Source of the DNA: Microbacterium sp. ACRRU
Lineage (GTDB): Bacteria; Actinomycetota; Actinomycetes; Actinomycetales; Microbacteriaceae
Direction of reading: 5' to 3'
DNA length: 64,000 bases
Assembly (NCBI RefSeq): GCF_022346945.1
Contig: NZ_JAKRNI010000001.1
Location: forward strand, 186,001 to 250,000
A program made the position numbers and the translations under genes. Positions 255 through 38,495 of the stretch are shown in pieces. The notes under the pieces were generated by a model that saw only the letters and a program-made list of their open reading frames with translations, was not told the origin of the DNA and made no database searches. How positions within the stretch are numbered: the first letter of the stretch is position 1; every line of letters starts with the position of its first letter.

Positions 255-1174
255 GTCAGGGGGAGCATCCACACATCGGCGTTCCCGGTCAGGAACAGCC
301 GGGTCTCGCCGCTGTCGAAGGCGCAGTTGCTCACCACGTGGGGCGTCGGAACGACCCCCAGGCGGGCTCCTGTCTCGTCGACGATGACAACGCCGGCTTC
401 GCTGCTGATCCATAGCCAGCCGCGGCTGTCGACGGCAAACCCGTCCGGGATGCCGGCATCCACCGTCGCGAACGTGGACGGGGCGCCGAGCGTCTCGCCG
501 TTCCAGGCGCACGCGGCGATGCGGGGCAGGCCGTCAGGATGGGATTCCGCGACGTAGAGGGTGGACTCGTCGGGGCTGAAGCCGATGCCGTTGGGCGCGT
601 CGAGGTCGATCATGCGCTCGAGGGGTCGCCCTTCTTGCCAGCGGTACACGCTCTGGTGATCCAGCGACGGTTCGGCCGGATAGCCCTCGCGGGGGTCGGA
701 GATGCCGTACAGCGGGTCGGTGAACCACACGGCACCGGTGCGGTCGATGACGAGGTCGTTCGGCGAGTTCAGCGGCATCCCCTCGTACGCATCGGCGAGC
801 ACGTGCGTCCCGTTTCCGTCCGTGCGGCTGATCGCGCGGCGGCCGTGCTCGGCGTGCACGAGGCGCCCCTCGGCATCCACCGCGTTGCCGTTCGCGAACG
901 CCGACGGGTCGACGATCGCGACGACACTTCCGTCTTCTCGCCACCCGAGGGTGCGGCGGCCGATGACGTCGCTGAAGACGAGCATCCGTTCCTGCTCCCA
1001 CCAGACAGGCCCCTCGGCCCAGCTCGCGTCCGAGTACAGCGACAACACGCGTGCGGAGGGTGAGATGACGTGGCGCAGGCGATCGTCGTACACGCGCGGT
1101 CGCGCGACGTCGACAGGGGAGGGCTCCCGCCTCGTCTGCAACAGTCGTCCGTCGATCGTCGATGAAGTCGGCAT
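251..1174 (-). CDS. SMP-30/gluconolactonase/LRE-like family protein
   Basis: A 307-residue six-bladed-propeller protein of the SMP-30 family, whose members are metal-dependent lactonases or related hydrolases. Family marks seen: an EGPVWWEQE strand near residue 54 (metal-binding Glu), LNSPNDLVIDRTGAVWFTDP in the middle (metal-binding Asn), and NGIGFSPDESTLYV with GIPDGFAVDSRGWLWIS later (metal-binding Asp). No signal peptide, so probably cytosolic. It overlaps the downstream FGE-like gene by 4 bp. The substrate cannot be read from sequence. The start is uncertain: the first ~25 residues look unlike the family, and a GTG further in is possible. Confidence 0.85.
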   Translation of the reverse strand: MPTSSTIDGRLLQTRREPSPVDVARPRVYDDRLRHVISPSARVLSLYSDASWAEGPVWWEQERMLVFSDVIGRRTLGWREDGSVVAIVDPSAFANGNAVDAEGRLVHAEHGRRAISRTDGNGTHVLADAYEGMPLNSPNDLVIDRTGAVWFTDPLYGISDPREGYPAEPSLDHQSVYRWQEGRPLERMIDLDAPNGIGFSPDESTLYVAESHPDGLPRIAACAWNGETLGAPSTFATVDAGIPDGFAVDSRGWLWISSEAGVVIVDETGARLGVVPTPHVVSNCAFDSGETRLFLTGNADVWMLPLT

Positions 1175-1299
1175 ATGCCCAGTGAAACGGTCGCCGGCAG
1201 AAGCTGCAGCCGGGTTGACGGGCCCGCGCAGGATCAGACAGGCCCGCCGAACGGGTGTGCGGTGGATGCCGGATCCTTCTCAGAACATGAGAGGCGCGC

Positions 1300-1809
1300 T
1301 CAGTACGGTCGGCTCGGCGAAACATCCTCGGGCAGAACGAAGCAGGGTGAGAAAGACAGGATCTGAACGAATGTCTTGTCCACGGACAGCGCCACGAGAT
1401 ACCCCTCCCCGTCGCTGCCAATTACGTGGGCACTGGGCTGGCTGTCGGGCGTGAGGCCCGTCTCGGTGGTGTAATGATCGCGGCCGTCGTACTGCTCGGC
1501 GATCTTTTCGGTAACCGCTGCCCCGTCGTAGACGGCCCCTGAATTCAGCAACACCTTGGTCTGGCCTGACCAGAGATAGTCTCCCTCTCTACTGCACGAC
1601 ATGAGAGCACCGCTCGGATTCTGGTCGATTGATGCCACCTGCTCAGCAGGCACAAAACCCGCCAGAGTCTTCTCCATTCCCTGGGCGATCGACTTGGCCT
1701 CGTCTATGGTGACTTTGTCATCCACCTCGGCGTCTCCTTTCATCGGGCTGCAGCCGGTCGCGATCAGCAGCAAGAGAGCAACAGCTATCGTCCCTATGCG
1801 CGGTCTCAT
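1300..1809 (-). CDS. Putative lipoprotein (third gene of WXG-like/hydrolase cassette)
   Basis: A 169-residue protein with a classical lipoprotein signal: MRPR, a hydrophobic run, then the lipobox IATGC (Cys ~20), so it should be anchored on the outer face of the membrane. The mature part is acidic and contains two further cysteines. No family recognised. Its ATG overlaps the TGA of the large hydrolase-like gene upstream (ATGA), so the two are translationally coupled. A small lipoprotein behind a large possibly exported protein could be an accessory or immunity factor, but that is inference from position only. Confidence 0.8.
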   Translation of the reverse strand: MRPRIGTIAVALLLLIATGCSPMKGDAEVDDKVTIDEAKSIAQGMEKTLAGFVPAEQVASIDQNPSGALMSCSREGDYLWSGQTKVLLNSGAVYDGAAVTEKIAEQYDGRDHYTTETGLTPDSQPSAHVIGSDGEGYLVALSVDKTFVQILSFSPCFVLPEDVSPSRPY

Positions 1810-3599
1810 CGTTCAATCTCCCGAAGCATGTGGAACAGGGCGGTCTGATTTTCTGGGTTGTCACTCGCGATGAGGTTGTGGTTCTCGATCGGCGTAGTGG
1901 TGAGGGGAATGGATGCTGGGGGTACTGGCGCGATGACGGCGTTGCGTGAGCTCGCTCCACTTGGGATGTAGAGCGTGAAGTCGCCCTCTCGAACATAGAC
2001 GTGTGATTCAAAGACGCCCTCTCGTGTCGGAACCCGTCCGTCCCACACAGCGCCGGTTCCTTGGACTATCGAGAGAGCGTCGGTGTATCCCCAGTGGAAG
2101 TACTCTGTGCTGGAGCTTGGCGTCCACGCCGACGGTAGCCCGGCGCCCGCAAGAGAGTGCACCTGGGCATACTTCGCGCCCGCTACCTCCGACGACGAAA
2201 TCCCCCCGAGTCCCCACGAATGACCCATCCCGCCCTGTTCGGCGGCCGCTGCCTCAGACGAGGATGACAGGAGTTCATGCTGGAAGTCCGCGATCAGTCT
2301 CCCTGTGTCGAGGGCAGCGCCCTGGTCATTCGCCTCGACGATACGCGCGAAGTCCATTGCCCCGGATACCACGTCCTCTCCGGGAAACAATCCCTCCTTC
2401 CAGACGAAGGTAACGACGCGAGGGTCGTTCGTCCGAAGCCACCGTCCGACCTGCTGCACCTGATCGCCATAGAAGCTGTGGACGCTCGTAAACGTCCCGG
2501 GTACGTACGTGATGACGTCCGTCGTGTTCACATCGAGGGTCCCAATCATCTCAATGATGCTTTGAGAATCCGGCTCGTACAGGTAGAGCTGGACGTCTCC
2601 GTCTGCCGCTCGCTGCAAGTAGTCCAGCTGGCGCTCCAGCCGGCCGATAACGTCCCGCCACGCAAGGAAGTCTGGACCGCCGTGCGCGAGGGACAATTCG
2701 GACATGCGCCGGATCTCGGCTTCCACCAATGGGATGCGGTTTTTCGCATTCACCGCGTTGGCGGCGACGCGGTTCGCCGGGGGAACCCCACCCAGCGACC
2801 CCACGATGACGGATGCGCCGAGCACCAACGAGTCGAGGGCGCCCGGGTTTGAGGCGGCGAGCTGTGTCCACCAGGCGTTGACCGCCGTGGCATCCGGGGG
2901 ATTCGACGCGAACAGTCGGCGCCAGTCGTCGTGTGCAGCAAGGAGCGCGAGGGCGTCATCGGCCGTCCCGGCGCTGAGTTTCGCGAGGATGGCGAATGCG
3001 ACACCGTCGGCGAGGGCATCGTATTCGGTCGTCCACGCGGTGGAGGATGGTGACGTCCCAACCGCGTTGCTGCTCGACAGTACGATGTCGGGCTGACTGA
3101 TGGACGCCAGGTCGCGGCGCGCCTCTTCGATGGCGGCGTCTCGAAGCGAACGCAAAGACAGGCACGCGGCGATCAATTCCTGGTTGTGCGCGAACTGGCC
3201 AGGCCCCCATGTGTCCTCGGTGCTCCCGATGCCCATCTCGTCCGACGATGTGCGGTATCCGCGAACGGCGTCGCGGAAGCTTTCGATTTCTGCGCGGAGC
3301 GATGTCTCCTGGGCTCGTGCCAAGGCGAGCTGGTCGGCCAGCTCGGTCATGATCGCGGCGATACGCCGGAAAGTTTCGACGAAATCGTCGGCGGCCCGCG
3401 GCACGACCGACATGCGAGCGAGGAGTTCGGCGGCCTCCGGGGCGTCATAACTTGCGGGGAGGGCGTTCCACGTCGCCGTGATCCGCTCGGCGGAGTCGGC
3501 AGCGGCATCTGCGCGGTGGCGGAGGGACTCCGCGGCGGCAGACAGCGCGGAGGGATCGATCGTCACCGAGGGGACGTTGGAGAGGGTCACGAGCGTCAT
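1806..3599 (-). CDS. Large alpha/beta-hydrolase-like protein with WXG-like N-terminus (DUF1023-like)
   Basis: A 597-residue protein. Residues ~1-130 are alanine-rich helices with a central ATWNALPASYDAPEA turn, resembling WXG100/LXG-type helical hairpins. The C-terminal third contains a nucleophile-elbow motif, GHSWGLGG (~residue 450), preceded by VITYVPGTFTSVHSFYGD, the arrangement of DUF1023-type alpha/beta hydrolases of actinobacteria. It overlaps its neighbours at both ends by 4 bp, forming a strict three-gene cassette. The reaction and substrate are unknown. Export through an ESX/type VII-like route is possible for WXG-containing proteins, but no secretion genes lie in this window. Confidence 0.75.
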   Translation of the reverse strand: MTLVTLSNVPSVTIDPSALSAAAESLRHRADAAADSAERITATWNALPASYDAPEAAELLARMSVVPRAADDFVETFRRIAAIMTELADQLALARAQETSLRAEIESFRDAVRGYRTSSDEMGIGSTEDTWGPGQFAHNQELIAACLSLRSLRDAAIEEARRDLASISQPDIVLSSSNAVGTSPSSTAWTTEYDALADGVAFAILAKLSAGTADDALALLAAHDDWRRLFASNPPDATAVNAWWTQLAASNPGALDSLVLGASVIVGSLGGVPPANRVAANAVNAKNRIPLVEAEIRRMSELSLAHGGPDFLAWRDVIGRLERQLDYLQRAADGDVQLYLYEPDSQSIIEMIGTLDVNTTDVITYVPGTFTSVHSFYGDQVQQVGRWLRTNDPRVVTFVWKEGLFPGEDVVSGAMDFARIVEANDQGAALDTGRLIADFQHELLSSSSEAAAAEQGGMGHSWGLGGISSSEVAGAKYAQVHSLAGAGLPSAWTPSSSTEYFHWGYTDALSIVQGTGAVWDGRVPTREGVFESHVYVREGDFTLYIPSGASSRNAVIAPVPPASIPLTTTPIENHNLIASDNPENQTALFHMLREIER

Positions 3600-3967
3600 C
3601 GCACCAGTGCCTCTCGTCGCCCGGTGCCCGAGGTGCGGGGGAGCGGTATCGACGCTTCGGCACCGGATGTGGTGGATGCCATCTCGTCGTCAGCCTGCAC
3701 ATAGGCGAGAACAACCTGGCCGGCTGCGATCACAACGTCGCCGCCGTGTTGGACTGCGCCAGGGCCGGTGCGTCGCCGCTCCTCCGTTGCGCCCGTCAAC
3801 GCGGAGGCGAGGTCGGCTTCTGTCGTGACAAGCCGAACCATCTGGTCGAGGTCGGCGACCGCCCCGCTCACGGATTGACCTAACGATTCCAGCGCCGACG
3901 CAACGCCGTCGGTCGTCGAGACGAACCCCGCCACATCGATCGAATACTGCCCGCCCATGCGCTCCAT
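3596..3967 (-). CDS. Small WXG-like protein, first gene of the cassette
   Basis: About 123 residues from the ATG at 3967 (MERMGG...); a second ATG lies three codons later. The ORF extends further upstream, but those residues look non-coding. The N-terminal part YSIDVAGFVSTTDGVASALESLGQ is amphipathic and helical, as in small ESX-like partner proteins, but the diagnostic WXG tripeptide is absent, so the family call is weak. The C-terminus is polar and Ser/Thr-rich. ATGA overlap with the 597-residue hydrolase-like gene. A partner or chaperone for that protein is the simplest inference. Confidence 0.65.
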   Translation of the reverse strand: MERMGGQYSIDVAGFVSTTDGVASALESLGQSVSGAVADLDQMVRLVTTEADLASALTGATEERRRTGPGAVQHGGDVVIAAGQVVLAYVQADDEMASTTSGAEASIPLPRTSGTGRREALVR

Positions 3968-31941: not shown

Positions 31942-33099
31942 ATGACCACGACTCCTTCTTCCGGTGTTCCCGCGGTGGAGGACAGCGGGCTGTGGGATTC
32001 GCCCCCCGACGAACGCTTCGATCGCATCACCCGCGTGGCGCAGGAGCTGTTCGACGTCGACCTGGCCCTCGTCAACGTCGTGGGCGCGGACGACATCTAC
32101 ACCAAGGGCCAGCCCGACGGCGCGCGCTTCGGGTTCTCGTCGGTGGCGGAGGTCTTCTGCGGGGATACCGTCCAGCAGGACGACATTCTCGAGATCGAAG
32201 ACGCGCGCGCGATCGAGCGCTACGCGAGTCGGGGTGCCGTGACGCACTACGGCATGCGCTTCTACGCCGGCATCCCGCTGCGTAACGATCGGGGGGATGC
32301 CGTGGCGACCCTGTGTCTGCTCGATGGCGACTCGCGCCATCTGGATGCCGCCGAGCGGGAGGCGTTGTACAGGCTGGGGCAGTGGGCCCAGGCGGAAGTG
32401 CGACAGGCCCAGCCCGGGGCCGAGGCGGGCGGAGCGGCGTCGGCCGCGCCCCGAGGCGACAGTCTGGTCGGCGACGAGCTGCGCCTCGCGGCGCTCGCGA
32501 TCCCGCACGGGTTGATCAGCGGGGACCGCAGCGGATGGCAGCAGTTCGGCGGTCGTGTCGTCGTGACCCTCGCCGACGTCATGGGGAAGGGCGAGGAGGC
32601 GGGCCGTCTGGCCGACGAACTCCTGGCGGCCCTGCAGTCCCGCCGTGACAGCGCTCCGCTCGATGCCGTGCGGTCGGTCGAGGACGAGGCGCGTGCGACG
32701 GGCCGCTACCGCGACACGTTCGCGACGCTGTTCCATGCCGTCATCGACACGACGACCGGGATAGTGGACTTCGTCGACGCCGGCCACGGATTGACGCTGC
32801 TGCTGCGTGCCGACGGGACCACCGAGCGGCTCCGGTCGCACAACCTCCCGCTCGGGCTGCGCCCCCGCGAGCTGGCGTGGGAGGCGGGCCAGGTCGAGGT
32901 CGCGCGGGGCGATCTCATCGTGAGCGTGTCCGACGGAGCGCTCGACGCGTACGACTCCACGCTCGACAGCCTGCGCCTCATCGGTGAAGATCTGCGGCGG
33001 TCCGCGGATCCGGATGACTTCTTCCGGGATCTCTCCGTGCGAGTGTCGACGCAGCCCGTTGACGACGACGTCACCGCGGTGGTCGTGTCGATCCACTGA
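31942..33099 (+). CDS. GAF-domain PP2C-type (SpoIIE/RsbU-like) serine phosphatase
   Basis: 385 residues. An N-terminal GAF sensor (~30-150) includes VAEVFCGDTVQQDD and MRFYAGIPLRNDRGD. The C-terminal PPM phosphatase domain keeps its metal-binding Asps: ISGDRSGW (~193), VTLADVMGKGEEAGRLADEL (~212), IVSVSDGALDAYD (~330), and PVDDDVTAVVV at the end. RsbU/SpoIIE-like enzymes dephosphorylate STAS anti-anti-sigma proteins. Such a STAS protein, with its ATPase, is encoded in the operon converging on this gene from 46 nt away, so it is the likely substrate. GGGAGGA precedes the ATG. Confidence 0.88.
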   Translation: MTTTPSSGVPAVEDSGLWDSPPDERFDRITRVAQELFDVDLALVNVVGADDIYTKGQPDGARFGFSSVAEVFCGDTVQQDDILEIEDARAIERYASRGAVTHYGMRFYAGIPLRNDRGDAVATLCLLDGDSRHLDAAEREALYRLGQWAQAEVRQAQPGAEAGGAASAAPRGDSLVGDELRLAALAIPHGLISGDRSGWQQFGGRVVVTLADVMGKGEEAGRLADELLAALQSRRDSAPLDAVRSVEDEARATGRYRDTFATLFHAVIDTTTGIVDFVDAGHGLTLLLRADGTTERLRSHNLPLGLRPRELAWEAGQVEVARGDLIVSVSDGALDAYDSTLDSLRLIGEDLRRSADPDDFFRDLSVRVSTQPVDDDVTAVVVSIH

Positions 33100-33145
33100 C
33101 ACCTCCGTCCGCGGCCCATCGTCTCGCCGAGGCCGATCCCGCGGG

Positions 33146-35620
33146 TCAGTGCGGGGTGACTCGGGATGCCGCCCGGCGCCGGAGAGCGATGGCGAGCAGC
33201 CAGAGTGCGAGCAGCCCGCCGGTTGCGACGAGGGTGGCGACGAGCGGATCGTCGACGTCGAGCGCGGGGACGCTCGCGATCAGGATCAGCAGGAGCAGCT
33301 GCGCGCAGAACACGGCCAGGCTCGCTTGACCCAGCGGCACCCACACGGCGCGCCACACCCGGTCCACGGGCACCCAGACCGCGGTCAGGACGGCGAGGGC
33401 GACCGCGAGCAGGACGGCCGAATCGCCGAGCCGCATGAGGTCGAGACCACCGGGTGCGGACGGCGTGATCACGCCGAGAACCGGGGCAGTCACGCCAGTG
33501 ATGGCTGCCGCGGCCCACGCCAGAACGATCACCGTCGCCACCGTCATGCCTCCGGGCCGACGCAGGAGCCGGGAGATCACCGCGCGGTGGTATCCCACGA
33601 CGAGGCCGAGGACGAAGGGCAGCTGCCAGGCGAGGAGGGGATAGACCGCATCGAACGCGGTCGGCAGGAGGATGGCATCCGGTAGCGCGATCGACATGGC
33701 GTAGGCGGCGATGCTCACGGCCACGACGACCCACCACAGGCGACGACGCAGCAGGGCGAGGAACAGGGGTGCGAGGAGCGCCAGGGCGATGAACAGACCC
33801 AGGATCACGATCGGCCACGGGCTCATCCGTAGGAGGAGGAGATCGCGCACCGCGTACCACGGCGGTGGGTAGTCCAAAAGGCGCTCGGCGTTCGGGTACA
33901 GGTCGTACACGCGACCCGTCGACGGGTCGGTCAGCGTCGTGACGGTGGTGGTGTCGAGGAAGGGGAGGAAGCCCACGGCGAAGACGGCCACGATCACCGA
34001 CAGCGTCACGGCGTACAGCCGCCCGGCGCGTCGCCACCCGCGTGCGAGGGAATCGCCGACGCCGAGAGCATCGAGGCGGCGCCGGTAACCCAGCCCCATG
34101 ACGATGCCGCTGATCGCGACGAACAGCTCGGCGCCGGTGACGGAGAGGACGGCCTGCGACGCGACAGTGAGGGGCCCCGCGCTCGCGAGGACCGCGAGGA
34201 CGCCGCCCGCGATGGCGACACCGCGCACGACGTCGAGCCGCAGATCTCGTTCGTGCGCCTCGTGTCGGTATCGCCACCGGGGGAGCAGCCGCGACACCGC
34301 GAGTGCCATCACGAGGGCGATGGCTGCCCCGGCCATCGTCCACGCGGCGACCGTCGGTCGCTCCGACCCGGCCGGTTCCGTGAGGGGAGAATGGCTCGAA
34401 AGGCCTTCGTCCGCCGTCACCGGGGGAGTCACCGGCGCCCACGCGAAGCGTCCCGTCGCGACGAGGTCTGCCCGGAGCGCCTGCGCGACCCGAGGGTCCG
34501 CCGTCGCGCGCCAGTCCGCCTCGGCACCGCCGGCCTCGGCCTCGACGCGTTCGACCTCCAGCCAGGAGACGGTGTCGATGTGCGGATGCGCGGGCAGCTC
34601 GTTCAGCACCTGCTGCCACCATCCCCTCTTCACCGAGAGCTCGTCGTCACCCGCGCGCGCGGGGTCGAACAGGGCTCCGGTGTCGATCGCCATCGGGCGG
34701 TCCGGCCGGGCGAAACGCTCGGTGAAACTCTGCGGCTGGGCCACGGTGTACCCCCAGCGCTCTGCCAGACGCTGCGCGACCTCGCCGCTCTCGGGGGCGT
34801 CGTTGTGCTCGAGGGGAACCCCCCGGCCCGCGGCCGCCGCCGCCTCCCCCTTGCCGAAGTAGTAGAGGGTGAGCCCGACGCGATCCACGGCATCCGCACG
34901 CGGAAAGTACGGACCGTAGGGGTCGTCGGCCTCGGTGAGCAGGCCGTCGGCGTCGGTGTCGAGGGTCCGCTCGTCGCGCGCCGACAGGTCGTCCAGGCGC
35001 CCGTCGGCGCGGTCGAACGGGTATCCCGCCCCGTAGGACGGCACCCAGACGGTCTCGGCCCCCGAGGATCCGGCGTGCACGGCGTCGGCGACGGTTTCGA
35101 ACGCGCGCACGTACGCCGTGGGCTGCTGCCCCCACCGCACCCAGGACCCGTTCATCTCCGGGGCGAACCGCACGCGCTGCTCGGTGCCGTACGCGGCGTG
35201 CACGCGGTCGAGGGTGTCCGCGAGAGCCCGGGCGTCCGCCGCCGTGAGCTCGTCGAGATCCGTCGTCGGCTCGAACGTCAGGATGAGCGCTGCCCCCTGG
35301 GCTGCGGCCGCGGTGGCCGCGCGCTGCCAGCCCCGCTCCGCGGCGGCATCCAGGGGATAGGCCAGACGGATGCCGTAGGCCGGCGGCGTCTCACCGAGTC
35401 GCCGAGCGTACCCCTCCGGGGCGTCAGCACCCCAGTCCAGCTCGGGGGCGAACCACAGGCCCCCTGCGTCCGCGCCGGGTGACGCATCCGCGGCGGGCTC
35501 AGTGGGCGAACCGTCGACGGCGGCCGCGGCCACGCCGCTGCCCGCTGCCGCGAACACCGCGACCGCGGTGAGGGCCGTCGCGATGACCCGCGTGACCAGC
35601 CGGCGAGAGGCTCGCCTCAC
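33146..35620 (-). CDS. GH26-like domain fused to an OpgC-like membrane acyltransferase domain
   Basis: 824 residues. Signal peptide (~1-34), then a beta-mannanase-like (GH26) domain to ~390: the acid/base Glu is present in RVRFAPEMNGSWVRWG (~155), but the place of the usual nucleophile reads RPMAIDTGALFDP, without Glu. A linker and about ten membrane helices follow (~415-815), starting DLRLDVVRGVAIAGG, the entry motif of OpgC/acyltransferase-3-like proteins that acylate extracellular glycans. The ATG overlaps the stop of the ATPase gene (ATGA); it is last in the synthase operon. Likely binds, trims or acylates the polymer made by the first gene; this is inference. Confidence 0.82.
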   Translation of the reverse strand: MRRASRRLVTRVIATALTAVAVFAAAGSGVAAAAVDGSPTEPAADASPGADAGGLWFAPELDWGADAPEGYARRLGETPPAYGIRLAYPLDAAAERGWQRAATAAAAQGAALILTFEPTTDLDELTAADARALADTLDRVHAAYGTEQRVRFAPEMNGSWVRWGQQPTAYVRAFETVADAVHAGSSGAETVWVPSYGAGYPFDRADGRLDDLSARDERTLDTDADGLLTEADDPYGPYFPRADAVDRVGLTLYYFGKGEAAAAAGRGVPLEHNDAPESGEVAQRLAERWGYTVAQPQSFTERFARPDRPMAIDTGALFDPARAGDDELSVKRGWWQQVLNELPAHPHIDTVSWLEVERVEAEAGGAEADWRATADPRVAQALRADLVATGRFAWAPVTPPVTADEGLSSHSPLTEPAGSERPTVAAWTMAGAAIALVMALAVSRLLPRWRYRHEAHERDLRLDVVRGVAIAGGVLAVLASAGPLTVASQAVLSVTGAELFVAISGIVMGLGYRRRLDALGVGDSLARGWRRAGRLYAVTLSVIVAVFAVGFLPFLDTTTVTTLTDPSTGRVYDLYPNAERLLDYPPPWYAVRDLLLLRMSPWPIVILGLFIALALLAPLFLALLRRRLWWVVVAVSIAAYAMSIALPDAILLPTAFDAVYPLLAWQLPFVLGLVVGYHRAVISRLLRRPGGMTVATVIVLAWAAAAITGVTAPVLGVITPSAPGGLDLMRLGDSAVLLAVALAVLTAVWVPVDRVWRAVWVPLGQASLAVFCAQLLLLILIASVPALDVDDPLVATLVATGGLLALWLLAIALRRRAASRVTPH

Positions 35621-36033
35621 GGTCGCTCGCTCTCCAACTCCCAGACGTTGCGGGCACCGTCACGGCGGTAGGCGACGTGGTCCACACCCGCGACGGCCAA
35701 CGCCAACCCGCGGCCGGTCTCCTCGTCGATGGATGCCATACGCACGGCATCCGGATCGAACGACGTGGGCCGCCCGTCGTCGCCGAACGTGGCCCGTAGC
35801 CGGACCGGGGTGGCCGAGAGCTCGAGCGTGAACTCTCCGTCCGGCCTCGCGGCTCCGGAGTGCTCGACGATGTTGCCGGCGATCTCGATGACGGCGGTGT
35901 CGAAACCGAACCGCACGCGCGGCGGGACCTCACCGACCTCCGACCACCACTGCTCGAGCAGGTCGTGGATGGCGTCGAGGCTCGCGACCACGACGGGGGC
36001 GCTCAGGCGGCGCTCGATGTCGGTCTCAGTCAC
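35617..36033 (-). CDS. RsbW-like anti-sigma-type ATP-binding protein (HATPase_c_2)
   Basis: 138 residues of the GHKL ATPase fold. The N box is visible in FDTAVIEIAGNIVEHSG (~45-60) and the G box in EETGRGLALAVAGVDHV (~100-117). RsbW/SpoIIAB-type kinases bind a target protein and phosphorylate a STAS antagonist on Ser. I start it at GTG 36033, which has GGAGG 6 nt upstream and overlaps the STAS gene by 8 bp. No sigma factor gene is in the operon, so its target may be another protein. Confidence 0.85.
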   Translation of the reverse strand: MTETDIERRLSAPVVVASLDAIHDLLEQWWSEVGEVPPRVRFGFDTAVIEIAGNIVEHSGAARPDGEFTLELSATPVRLRATFGDDGRPTSFDPDAVRMASIDEETGRGLALAVAGVDHVAYRRDGARNVWELESERP

Positions 36034-36361
36034 GGAGAGCCTCCTCGACGCTCGGGCGGGGCCGCAGGACACGGTCGAGGTTCGTCAGCCCGAGGACCAT
36101 CGAGACCTGGTCCGACGGGGAGGCGAGCCGGAGGTCGCCACCGGCCTGGCGCGCGCTGCTGAGGCAAGAGACGAGCGCGCCGACCCCGGACGAGTCGACG
36201 AAGTCGGTCTGCGACAGGTCGATCACGACGACCGGACCGCCGCCCTTCTGAATGACATCGGTGACCGTCTCGCGGAAGTCGCACGCCGACACCATGGTCA
36301 ATCGTCCGCGCGGCGTGATGACGGTCGCGCTGTCGCGAGCGTCGATGTCGACCTGGAGCAT
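36026..36361 (-). CDS. STAS-domain anti-anti-sigma-like protein (RsbV/SpoIIAA family)
   Basis: 111 residues; a single STAS domain starting MLQVDIDARDSATVITPRGR. The phosphorylatable Ser lies in TDFVDSSGVGALVSCL (~58), the canonical position. In partner switches the unphosphorylated form sequesters the ATPase and the phosphorylated form releases it. The gene starts one base after the glycosyltransferase stop and overlaps the ATPase gene, so all three proteins are co-produced. Confidence 0.92.
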   Translation of the reverse strand: MLQVDIDARDSATVITPRGRLTMVSACDFRETVTDVIQKGGGPVVVIDLSQTDFVDSSGVGALVSCLSSARQAGGDLRLASPSDQVSMVLGLTNLDRVLRPRPSVEEALRD

Positions 36362-36362
36362 G

Positions 36363-38369
36363 TCAGTAACCCTTCGGTTCGTGGTCGGATGCCGAGTACC
36401 GCACGGCGCGGATGATGACGCTGAACACGGCGAGGTCGTACAGCACCCACACGATGTTGACCAGCGGCGCCACGCCCTCCGCCTGGCCCACGGCGTAACG
36501 GATGGCGACGACGACGAGCGACAGCACGAGAGCGGCCATCACGATCAGTTGCGGTCGAACGAGGTCCCATCGCGGCCGGTTCTCGGTGGACCGCGTCTTG
36601 GGGGTCACCGAGAACGCGAGCGAGCGCCCCCCGTAGACGTTGCCCACCGCGCTGGTGACCGCGCGGATCCAGGTGGGGAAGAGCGCGAGCGAGTACTGCG
36701 CCCCCCGCCACGTCGGGCGGCCGTTCGCCACGACGATGAACAGCACCTGATTCAGCACGAAGAACGGGATGAAACGCGCGAAGAAGTCCACGCTCCACGC
36801 CTGCACCGGCATGACGCCGAACGTGAGGTAGAGGACGGGAGCGGTGACGTACACGATCGCGGCGAAGCCCGAGAGGTAGCTCCACATCGTGCCGAAGTAC
36901 ATCAAGCGCTGACCCCAGCTGAGGCCTTTCTGCACCAGGGGGTTCTCGCGGAACATCACCTGCATCGTGCCCTGCGCCCACCGCAGGCGCTGCGTGAGCA
37001 TCGTGGGCAGGTCGTCGGGGGCCAGCCCCCGGGCGAGCACTTGATCGTGGTAGACCGACCGCCACCCCAGCCCGTGCAGGCGCATCGACGTCGCCATGTC
37101 CTCGGTGACCGAGATCGTGGCCAGCGGCATGATCGCCTGCGCCTCTTCGTCACGGCCCACGTCGAACGCGTTCACGAGCAGGCTGACGGATTCGACCGCC
37201 GCCAGGGGAGACAGGCTCTTCTCGGTCAGCGCTTCCAGGGCGACGTCGTCGACGGATGCCAGTGTCTCGGGGTCACCGGTCAGCTCGGCGAGGGCCGCGA
37301 GCTCGGCGCGCAGAGCGGAGATGTCCTCTCCGCTGAGGCGCTCGCGCACGTCGTCGATCCGGCGCTGGAACCGGTAAGTGAGGTCGGCCAGGGGCTCGCC
37401 GGTGGCGAGACCGGACTTGAGGGCGTCGAGGGCTGCGGCGACCTCATCCAGGGCGGCGACGACGCGGGGTTCTCGCGCGTGTGCACGTCGTGCCCGGGCC
37501 AACACCCGCCGAGATGCCCGGACACCACGGTCGACCGCACGTTCGACATCGCCGACGTAGCGGGAGACCCCGAGCTGCATGAGCGCTTCGCGGCGGAGAA
37601 TCGCGTTCGAGCCGCAGAAGAACGCCGCGTTCCATCCGTCCTTGGACTGCTGGATCGGGCCGTAGAAGAGGGGCGCCTGACTACCCAGCGGATCCGAGGG
37701 GGGCACGTTGACGAACCACTGCGGAGTCTGCACGAGCGCGACACGCTCGTCCGCGTCGAACCAGCCCAGTGTGCGGTCAAGGATGTCGGGGGAGGGGATC
37801 TGGTCCGCGTCGAGGATCAGGAGGAATTCGCCCTCGGTCACCATCAGGGCGTTGTTCAGATTGCCCGCTTTGGCGTGGCGCGGTCGATCGCGCCACGCCT
37901 CCGAGCGGGTGATGACCCCGATCCCCTCCGCCTCGGCGAGCGCGCGCAATTCGGCACGGTCGCCGTCGTCGAGGATCCACGTGCGGTGCGGGTAGCGGAT
38001 GGCGAGCGCCGCGCGAGCGGTCCCCATGACGAGATCCAGTGGCTCGTTATAGGTCGTCACGAGCACATCGACCGTCATCTCGCGCGTGATCGGGGGAGCG
38101 TCGTGCCGCTCCCGCAGCCGCCATGCGCCCAGACCGAAGAGGATGCAATCGATGAGGCTGTACGTCTCGGCCAGCACCAGGGGCACAGCGATCCACCAGT
38201 GCTCCCAGTTCACCGACGCCAGCCAGCGCCAGGCGAGGTAGTTGACCCCGCTCGCGATGGACAACACCACGATGACGCGGATCAGCGCGTGACGGCGGAC
38301 GCGCTGCGCCTCGCGCCGACGGGCCTCGTGACGGGAATCGTCACGGGGGACGGTTGTTTCGACGATCAT
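36363..38369 (-). CDS. Cellulose-synthase-like family 2 glycosyltransferase
   Basis: 668 residues from ATG 38369 (GGAG 7 nt upstream). Two N-terminal helices (~30-75), then the processive GT2 core: VDVLVTTYNEPLDLVMG, WILDDGDRAELRALA (~130), LLILDADQIPSPDI (~185), FFCGSNAILRREALMQLGV (~250), VTEDMATSMRLHGLGW (~418), and QRLRWAQGTMQVMF (~462), ending in about five helices. An extra ~150-residue helical insertion (bases ~37575-37125) splits the GSN and TED blocks. No PilZ domain. Makes and extrudes a beta-linked polysaccharide; the sugar is unknown. First gene of the operon with STAS, ATPase and GH26/OpgC. Confidence 0.9.
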   Translation of the reverse strand: MIVETTVPRDDSRHEARRREAQRVRRHALIRVIVVLSIASGVNYLAWRWLASVNWEHWWIAVPLVLAETYSLIDCILFGLGAWRLRERHDAPPITREMTVDVLVTTYNEPLDLVMGTARAALAIRYPHRTWILDDGDRAELRALAEAEGIGVITRSEAWRDRPRHAKAGNLNNALMVTEGEFLLILDADQIPSPDILDRTLGWFDADERVALVQTPQWFVNVPPSDPLGSQAPLFYGPIQQSKDGWNAAFFCGSNAILRREALMQLGVSRYVGDVERAVDRGVRASRRVLARARRAHAREPRVVAALDEVAAALDALKSGLATGEPLADLTYRFQRRIDDVRERLSGEDISALRAELAALAELTGDPETLASVDDVALEALTEKSLSPLAAVESVSLLVNAFDVGRDEEAQAIMPLATISVTEDMATSMRLHGLGWRSVYHDQVLARGLAPDDLPTMLTQRLRWAQGTMQVMFRENPLVQKGLSWGQRLMYFGTMWSYLSGFAAIVYVTAPVLYLTFGVMPVQAWSVDFFARFIPFFVLNQVLFIVVANGRPTWRGAQYSLALFPTWIRAVTSAVGNVYGGRSLAFSVTPKTRSTENRPRWDLVRPQLIVMAALVLSLVVVAIRYAVGQAEGVAPLVNIVWVLYDLAVFSVIIRAVRYSASDHEPKGY

Positions 38370-38495
38370 GCTCTTGCTCCGGGGGTGATTCACCACGGTG
38401 CCATGACCGCAAGAGAGGAATCACGCAGGTAGCGTCGAGCTGGCGGCTTCTGGTAAACGATCCGCCGATCCGCCTGCGCCGGCCGTCGTGTGGGG

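Follow-up and report, generated by a model that had tools for sequence, protein, structure and literature searches.

A 64,000-nucleotide stretch of the genome of Microbacterium sp. ACRRU (contig NZ_JAKRNI010000001.1, positions 186,001 to 250,000; hereafter the window) carries a cellulose synthase-like gene together with the genes of a partner switch, namely an RsbV-like STAS protein, an RsbW-like kinase and an RsbU-like phosphatase. The locus is best read as a dedicated switch acting on the synthase itself, with the unphosphorylated STAS protein activating the enzyme directly, and a probability of about 0.6 is assigned to this reading. Its basis is the conserved linkage of the genes, the conservation of key residues, the natural fusion of STAS to the synthase, the joint loss of several components in two lineages, and the lack of GGDEF matches and of a SigB-type sigma factor in the genome. 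Direct binding of STAS to the synthase, activation as the sign of control, a role for an insertion within the synthase and the perception of a signal are proposed from these observations. As a partner switch it is of the usual kind; what departs from known systems is the proposed target, together with the insertion and the fusions.

The locus comprises the following genes and predicted site:

36363..38396, minus strand: BcsA-like processive glycosyltransferase family 2 (GT2) synthase, 677 amino acids (open frame, Pfam, NCBIfam, AlphaFold model)
36026..36361, minus strand: STAS protein, 111 amino acids, RsbV/SpoIIAA-like (PF01740 2e-20, TIGR00377 4.1e-21)
36191..36193, minus strand: predicted phospho-acceptor Ser57 of STAS, within D56-S-S-G59 (conserved column)
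35617..36033, minus strand: RsbW-like serine kinase (HATPase_c_2), about 138 amino acids from a GTG at 36033 (Pfam 1e-11)
33146..35620, minus strand: GH26-like domain and OpgC-like membrane acyltransferase in one 824-amino-acid protein (profile search, Pfam)
31942..33099, plus strand, convergent: GAF and SpoIIE (PP2C-type) phosphatase, 385 amino acids (Pfam SpoIIE 1e-24, GAF 5.5e-14)

Organisation of the locus and conserved residues

The four minus-strand genes are chained. The synthase (Pfam Cellulose_synt, 1.1e-20) and STAS genes are separated by 1 nucleotide, the likely GTG start of the ATPase at 36033, chosen from its start-codon context, overlaps the STAS end by 8 nucleotides, and the ATPase and GH26-OpgC frames overlap by 4 nucleotides. 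The phosphatase gene converges on this chain, with 46 nucleotides between the two 3' ends. An earlier reading of the window made from its letters alone (the original prediction) had described this layout, which is confirmed except for its outer limit: the synthase frame opens at 38396 and not at 38369, provided that no later start codon applies. A promoter and terminator consensus scan returned no match. The array is far beyond chance, given that the same genes recur together in more than 100 loci.

All three classical partner-switch roles are encoded here, as the original prediction held, with Pfam matches to SpoIIE and GAF, STAS, and HATPase_c_2. The key residues that it listed are likewise present. 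The STAS protein contains D56-S57-S58-G59, in which Ser57 is taken to be the phospho-acceptor by analogy to RsbV/SpoIIAA; the N and GRG boxes of the ATPase are conserved in 138 aligned rows, and the GD, D.MGKG, SDG and DD motifs of the phosphatase in 122 rows, and these motifs are assumed to have their usual roles. The locus thus possesses a PP2C phosphatase with metal-binding Asp residues and a sensor domain (GAF), a STAS protein with Ser in DS[S/T]G, and a GHKL kinase with N and G boxes; this kinase is predicted to phosphorylate STAS and to exchange partners. The one classical element lacking is a SigB/SigF-type sigma factor: none of the five genes matches a sigma factor in Pfam, in agreement with the original prediction, and the genome has none of that type. 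At two related loci (L112, L135), a single open frame preceding the synthase contains both an ATPase and a phosphatase match, possibly a kinase-phosphatase fusion or merely a long open frame.

Linkage in related genomes

Synthase loci were gathered from four sources, giving 165 in total: the window, 80 loci from genomes of relatives (24 from the same genus, 51 from the same family, 1 from the same class, and 4 weak paralogs), 4 plasmid loci, and 80 loci from a scan of species genomes, these being the best 80 of 578 confirmed synthase matches. Removal of five duplicates left 160 unique loci, with a fifth weak paralog (L032, short locus only) outside the count. Families were located with profiles seeded from the window proteins, a match being counted if it lay within 6 kb of the synthase, and insertion lengths and Ser states were read from alignments.

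The linkage is conserved. Of 146 loci whose synthase has a long insertion (156-179 amino acids), 122 have both STAS and ATPase within the limit, 116 of them with the SpoIIE-type phosphatase and 6 without it. The remainder have the ATPase only (14), STAS only (4), the phosphatase only (2) or none of the three (4); both phosphatase-only loci (L254, L274) are at contig ends and one STAS-only locus (L282) is near a contig end. All six loci at which this insertion is short (116-124 amino acids) have STAS, and none has the ATPase or the phosphatase. STAS is therefore near 132 of the 152 synthases with a long or short insertion, and at one locus (L255) the synthase and STAS genes share one frame across a single stop. 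Paralogs with a 14-amino-acid insertion have none of the three families nearby (0/4). The other 4 of the 160 are the plasmid loci, two of which (L033, L035) have STAS and ATPase at 6.6-7.2 kb, just past the limit. The original prediction had proposed a synteny search in relatives and staked itself on co-occurrence of the five genes; its refuting condition clearly fails, given the 122 of 146 long-insertion loci with STAS and ATPase, and the tie between switch and synthase is supported by this conserved linkage.

The synthase itself is patchily distributed, since a long, close match was found in 25/149 genomes of the genus (own included), in 51/299 genomes and 25/85 genera of the family at E ≤ 1e-60, and in 2/396 genomes of a phylum sample (own included). 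At E ≤ 1e-30 the genus count is 29/149, four of these genomes having a weak paralog only. Named carriers among the matches listed are Microbacterium, Curtobacterium, Frigoribacterium, Clavibacter, Arthrobacter, Nocardioides, Gordonia, Rhodococcus, Mycobacterium aurum, Cellulomonas and Kocuria, along with single metagenome-assembled genome (MAG) contigs assigned to Roseiflexus, Pseudomonadota and Spirochaetaceae.

The synthase and its insertion

Three features of the synthase are referred to below:

37110..37592, minus strand: helical insertion, residues ~269-429, after the DxD/FFCGS part and before the TED motif (alignments, model)
37212..37331, minus strand: element of the insertion, residues ~356-395, absent from both kinase-less lineages (alignment gaps)
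36597..36614, minus strand: FxVTxK gating-loop motif, F595-K600 (invariant residues)

The AlphaFold model of the synthase (predicted local distance difference test, pLDDT, 88.5; predicted template modelling score, pTM, 0.85) has the GT2 core and transmembrane channel fold of BcsA, and its best fold match is Escherichia coli BcsA (9b8v_E; Z 39.8, root-mean-square deviation 2.2 over 484 residues). The BcsA equivalog family TIGR03030 is matched with 354 bits in two stretches, below its cut-off of 699.1 bits. The product is probably a beta-glucan-like polymer. Residues F595, V597, T598 and K600 of FxVTxK are invariant in 73 aligned rows; this motif is presumably the gating loop, which in BcsA we take to be controlled by PilZ. 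No PilZ domain was matched by Pfam in the synthase, which stops 11 residues past the last helix of the model. The enzyme is thus like BcsA with its C-terminal PilZ in fold and in the TED, QxxRW and FxVTxK motifs, but differs in lacking PilZ, in possessing a helical insertion of about 160 amino acids before TED, and in that STAS takes the C-terminal position in the synthases of two relatives.

The insertion separates the DxD half from the TED half of the enzyme, at what we take to be the site of the class-specific region in plant CESA. Helices are modelled at residues 269-305, 310-331, 336-373, 378-392 and 397-411, the last part with lower confidence. The window insertion matches no Pfam family at E ≤ 0.1 (other insertions gave scattered weak matches), and when a profile of the insertion was searched against the PDB, the top hit was a designed protein at E 0.052. 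A fold search found no PDB match at E ≤ 0.001 and is little informative, as the pLDDT of the insertion model is only 75.

Lineages without the kinase

Most informative are the lineages in which the switch is incomplete. In two genomes of one genus (G280 and G332, genus g71), a single open frame encodes the synthase followed by a STAS domain at the C-terminus, and in three genomes of another (G319, G265 and G367, genus g49) the STAS gene directly follows the synthase. The window ATPase has no match at E ≤ 0.001 in any of these five whole genomes. Their SpoIIE matches span only about positions 103-191 of 192 and exceed the cut-off twice (G367, G319); these partial matches are presumably ordinary PP2C phosphatases. 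Microbacterium rhizomatis (L279) is in the same state at the locus, the scope of this observation, with STAS kept and the ATPase and phosphatase absent.

These six synthases are the short-insertion ones. Their three types have alignment gaps at residues 356-401, 365-399 and 356-394, so that both lineages are without about residues 356-395 in window synthase numbering. The phospho-site of the adjoining STAS is altered as well: the column is Ser in 126/126 STAS proteins adjoining long-insertion synthases and is replaced in 6/6 of those adjoining short-insertion synthases, by Ala (3), Pro (2) or Trp (1). Kinase, phosphatase, phospho-acceptor Ser and one insertion segment are thus absent together in two lineages, and STAS is retained in both. 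A quick tree of 79 rows, with the insertion excluded, places the short-insertion state as two changes on supported branches. The state of L279 is a loss, because it nests among intact loci; the g49/g71 lineage forms a separate branch next to the remaining rows.

The retention of STAS without a kinase, and with a site that cannot be phosphorylated, is what one would expect if STAS acts on the synthase itself. On these sequence patterns, STAS may be read as the part working on the synthase, which in the kinase-less lineages would be frozen in its unphosphorylated form.

Loci in other phyla

Seventeen plasmid records of Pseudomonadota with a related synthase were found and 12 were examined, the rest being from Pantoea stewartii, Pantoea piersonii, Salmonella enterica and another Pantoea. 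All 12 examined loci have STAS, ATPase and SpoIIE-type matches in their flanks, and 10 of the 12 adjoin an OpgC or other acyltransferase gene. The insertion is at the same place and is 55-60 amino acids long in the 11 of 12 rows that could be measured. In 11 rows (L033-L035, L284-L288, L290-L292), SED and QRFKY/QRYKY replace TED and QxxRW, and FxVTxK is kept; these motifs mark the plasmid synthases as a distinct subfamily and suggest another substrate or product.

Several of these plasmids have further features. A Vibrio sp. THAF190c plasmid (L289), a 1.7-Mb replicon, carries the synthase with STAS, ATPase and phosphatase matches, in a stretch left unannotated in the collection. In Pantoea stewartii DC283 plasmid pDSJ10 (L035, ~1111-3957), the phosphatase gene is separated from a partial STAS match by an IS66 element, and the STAS gene appears to be interrupted, unlike that of Pantoea sp. 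JZ29. Globin and response-regulator genes stand in a row at the synthase locus of three enterobacterial plasmids (L286, L288, L290), and L284 (Pseudooceanicola) has a gene for a heme-NO-binding protein; these neighbours hint that the switch responds to a gas or to redox state.

A cyanobacterial locus, on plasmid pn1 of Nostoc sp. UHCC 0926 (L036), encodes a GH26-like protein, the synthase, STAS, a SpoIIE-type phosphatase and the ATPase, with a DUF3131-like gene recognised by eye. Its synthase has 36 amino acids before TED and instead carries a large insertion earlier in the protein, after the first Asp motif and before DxD. A frame resembling a transposase, again by eye, stands among the switch genes. 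In a phage collection, five records gave weak synthase matches, without sign of mobile origin; Synechococcus phage S-CBWM1 (114875-116128) has a putative cellulose synthase gene with 33% identity to the window synthase.

Proposed mechanism and alternative explanations

In the preferred reading, the GAF phosphatase would perceive a signal and dephosphorylate Ser57 of STAS. The unphosphorylated STAS would dock on the cytosolic face of the synthase, at the insertion and/or the C-terminal tail, and docking would release the gating loop, upon which polymer would be made and exported. Without the signal, the RsbW-like kinase would phosphorylate and/or hold STAS, and the synthase would be off. STAS would in this way fill the role that the C-terminal PilZ domain and cyclic di-GMP (c-di-GMP) have in BcsA. 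Activation is the proposed sign because there would be little reason to retain a frozen STAS that keeps the enzyme permanently inactive, and because SypA offers a precedent: in the parts of the literature concerned, its unphosphorylated form is described as active, the S56A variant is active too, and its target is unknown (PMC4517449, PMC10120452).

Several observations weigh against direct activation by STAS. Only two independent co-loss events are available, so that a tree-based pair test cannot reach 0.05, and the five-row g49/g71 lineage, standing next to the whole remainder of the tree, could have kept an ancestral state. The insertions differ across phyla (about 55-60 amino acids in Proteobacteria; 36 amino acids plus another insertion in Nostoc), for which reason docking need not take place at the insertion in all of them. 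One genome (G344, locus L133) has a STAS with its Ser and a full 171-amino-acid insertion, and no ATPase or SpoIIE match genome-wide in its 100-contig draft. Two further loci (L115, L269) also have STAS only and a full insertion; the genome of L115 (G174) has an unlinked STAS-ATPase-phosphatase set, and that of L269 has further STAS matches. Moreover, at 14 loci, all of which except L276 belong to Curtobacterium or its group, the kinase is kept beside the synthase and STAS is not. At four others, three of Arthrobacter (L222, L229, L240) and L252, no switch gene is nearby; a STAS 49-53% identical to that of the window is encoded elsewhere in 3/3 of these genomes searched, and the L252 strain also carries a complete locus (L256). 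In favour of the preferred reading, every tested genome without STAS beside the synthase still encodes STAS elsewhere. Direct coupling analysis of the 116 complete loci did not enrich its STAS-kinase control pair, and nothing is concluded from it; its top inter-protein pair joins V284 of the insertion with STAS position 52, for which the residue table has no clear covariation.

The Curtobacterium-type loci suit a different arrangement, since there the kinase and not STAS adjoins the synthase: the ATPase would bind the insertion and hold the synthase off, and unphosphorylated STAS would pull the kinase away. In both short-insertion lineages, segment 356-395 is missing where the kinase is missing, as this arrangement would have it. 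It is nevertheless unlikely, because STAS is retained in genomes without a kinase match, two of which have it fused to the synthase, and a pure antagonist would have no role there; in addition, the four Curtobacterium genomes searched all encode a second STAS-ATPase pair elsewhere, and the kinase-less L133, L115 and L269 keep the full insertion. The switch might also act on the GH26-like/OpgC protein, through trimming or succinylation of the polymer, or the linkage might reflect shared expression only. The protein belongs to the same operon in the window, an acyltransferase gene adjoins most of the proteobacterial plasmid loci and a GH26-like gene is present at the Nostoc locus; however, GH26 is near only 75 and OpgC near only 56 of the 152 synthases, compared with 132 for STAS, and both domains are presumably outside the cytosol, which makes this target improbable.

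The best known role of RsbU/V/W homologues, according to the review sections concerned, is control of a sigma factor, and the kinase could likewise sequester one that transcribes the operon or a regulon. Sigma region 2 has 11 matches in the host genome, of which 8 were examined: one factor has regions 1.2, 2, 3 and 4 and the other seven have regions 2 and 4 only. The single region 3 match is in the factor with region 1.2, of housekeeping type, so that a SigB/SigF-type target is unlikely; the fusion of STAS to the synthase in two relatives also speaks against this role, which is given little credence overall, although control of the housekeeping sigma factor by a partner switch is reported for Chlamydia in the part of the review that treats it. 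The host has one stand-alone STAS, its 2 STAS matches being that of the window and one in a SulP transporter, and among 16 HATPase_c_2 matches only that of the window is in a short frame (155 amino acids; the rest 406-736). SpoIIE has three matches, namely that of the window, a stronger one on contig C69 and a weak one on C16; the C69 phosphatase (75188-75730, in a 444-amino-acid frame) may provide this switch with a further signal input.

Finally, the switch could set c-di-GMP levels through a diguanylate cyclase, as BgrV-BgrR reportedly does in Sinorhizobium meliloti, with c-di-GMP controlling the synthase. Such an arrangement is described for the beta-glucan synthase BgsA in the relevant part of PMC8457831. 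Yet the host genome has no GGDEF match (8/14 control genomes are positive), which makes this route unlikely there, and the synthase lacks PilZ; for the host genome this explanation is largely refuted and retains only a very slight probability. The original prediction had left the synthase, the GH26/OpgC protein and an unlinked sigma factor as candidate targets. The data favour the first, to which STAS is fused in two genomes, over the other two, and its interpretation is borne out in part: a complete switch is tied to the synthase, and the exceptional loci point to STAS as the final effector.

Comparison with known systems

With the Rsb/SpoIIA switches (RsbU-RsbV-RsbW, SpoIIE-SpoIIAA-SpoIIAB), the window locus shares the three roles, the key residues and the order of STAS gene then kinase gene. 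It differs in being linked to a synthase, in the STAS fusions of two relatives, and in the lack of a sigma factor at the locus and of a SigB/SigF-type factor in the genome. Closer in function is SypA-SypE of Vibrio fischeri, as far as the accessible descriptions go, in which STAS is the downstream effector in a polysaccharide locus and acts below the level of transcription. SypE, however, unites kinase and phosphatase in one protein, whereas the window has separate genes, and the target that is missing for SypA has a candidate here from fusion and linkage. HmpU-HmpV-HmpW of Nostoc punctiforme, compared by description only, is also a partner switch in a polysaccharide and motility setting, with HmpV thought to be active when unphosphorylated and its target unknown, but the review passage on it gives no link to a cellulose synthase-like gene.

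Partner-switch targets besides sigma factors include the diguanylate cyclases BgrR and HsbD, according to the section concerned of PMC8457831. As described there in part, BgrUWV-BgrR of S. meliloti and HsbA-HsbD and SiaABCD of Pseudomonas aeruginosa resemble the present system as STAS-type or related switches, but they act via c-di-GMP, in contrast to a host genome without GGDEF. Anabaena all4160 combines STAS and a glycosyltransferase in one protein (PMC8256260, in the portion available), with STAS at the N-terminus, so that the domain order differs from that in the relatives of the window.

No prior report of a partner switch tied to a cellulose synthase-like enzyme was found in searches of open-access PMC papers, among the titles and starts of abstracts listed. 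PMC10384088, in which bcsA is named in a polar Microbacterium, and PMC7112194, on exopolysaccharide operons, contain no STAS, SpoIIE or anti-sigma terms, and PMC9495663 likewise gave no match in a term search.

The GH26/OpgC protein

The last gene of the chain encodes two domains:

34484-35461, minus strand: GH26-like domain (profile of relatives searched against the PDB)
33194-34282, minus strand: OpgC-like domain (Pfam OpgC_C 9.1e-36)

Pfam has no GH26 match in the window protein. A profile of 26 relatives searched against the PDB placed GH26 enzymes at the top (best 1.1e-6), the entries being taken as GH26 partly by their names and partly by assumption. With the catalytic sites assigned as we presume them to be in GH26, the window domain has Glu at the acid/base and Asp at the nucleophile, and several of the 26 rows differ at one or both. 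The fused domain may bind rather than cut the polymer. Some stand-alone GH26-like copies near synthases (L138, L136, L116, L120, L250) keep both Glu residues. Fifteen of the 75 nearby GH26 matches are weak, and GH26 and OpgC share one open frame at 53 of the 152 loci; the limited number of synthases with either domain nearby makes this protein an unlikely switch target.

Implications

The textbook example of an enzyme under allosteric c-di-GMP control is bacterial cellulose synthase; the present family keeps the gating loop without PilZ. It is judged a little more probable than its opposite that unphosphorylated STAS is, across this processive polysaccharide synthase family, a direct, phosphorylation-controlled allosteric activator that replaces PilZ and c-di-GMP. 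The arrangement would then be of great age or have spread by wide transfer (Actinomycetota, Pseudomonadota, a cyanobacterium, and the Roseiflexus and Spirochaetaceae MAG contigs) and would explain STAS proteins without an assigned target in polysaccharide loci.

The natural fusions and the kinase-less lineages are ready-made experiments. Direct gating of the synthase by STAS would make partner switching a post-translational control of a membrane enzyme as well as a device of transcription, and would give proteins of the SypA and HmpV type a concrete candidate class of target. It would also be a new route by which bacteria may switch on an outer coat without the usual messenger molecule.

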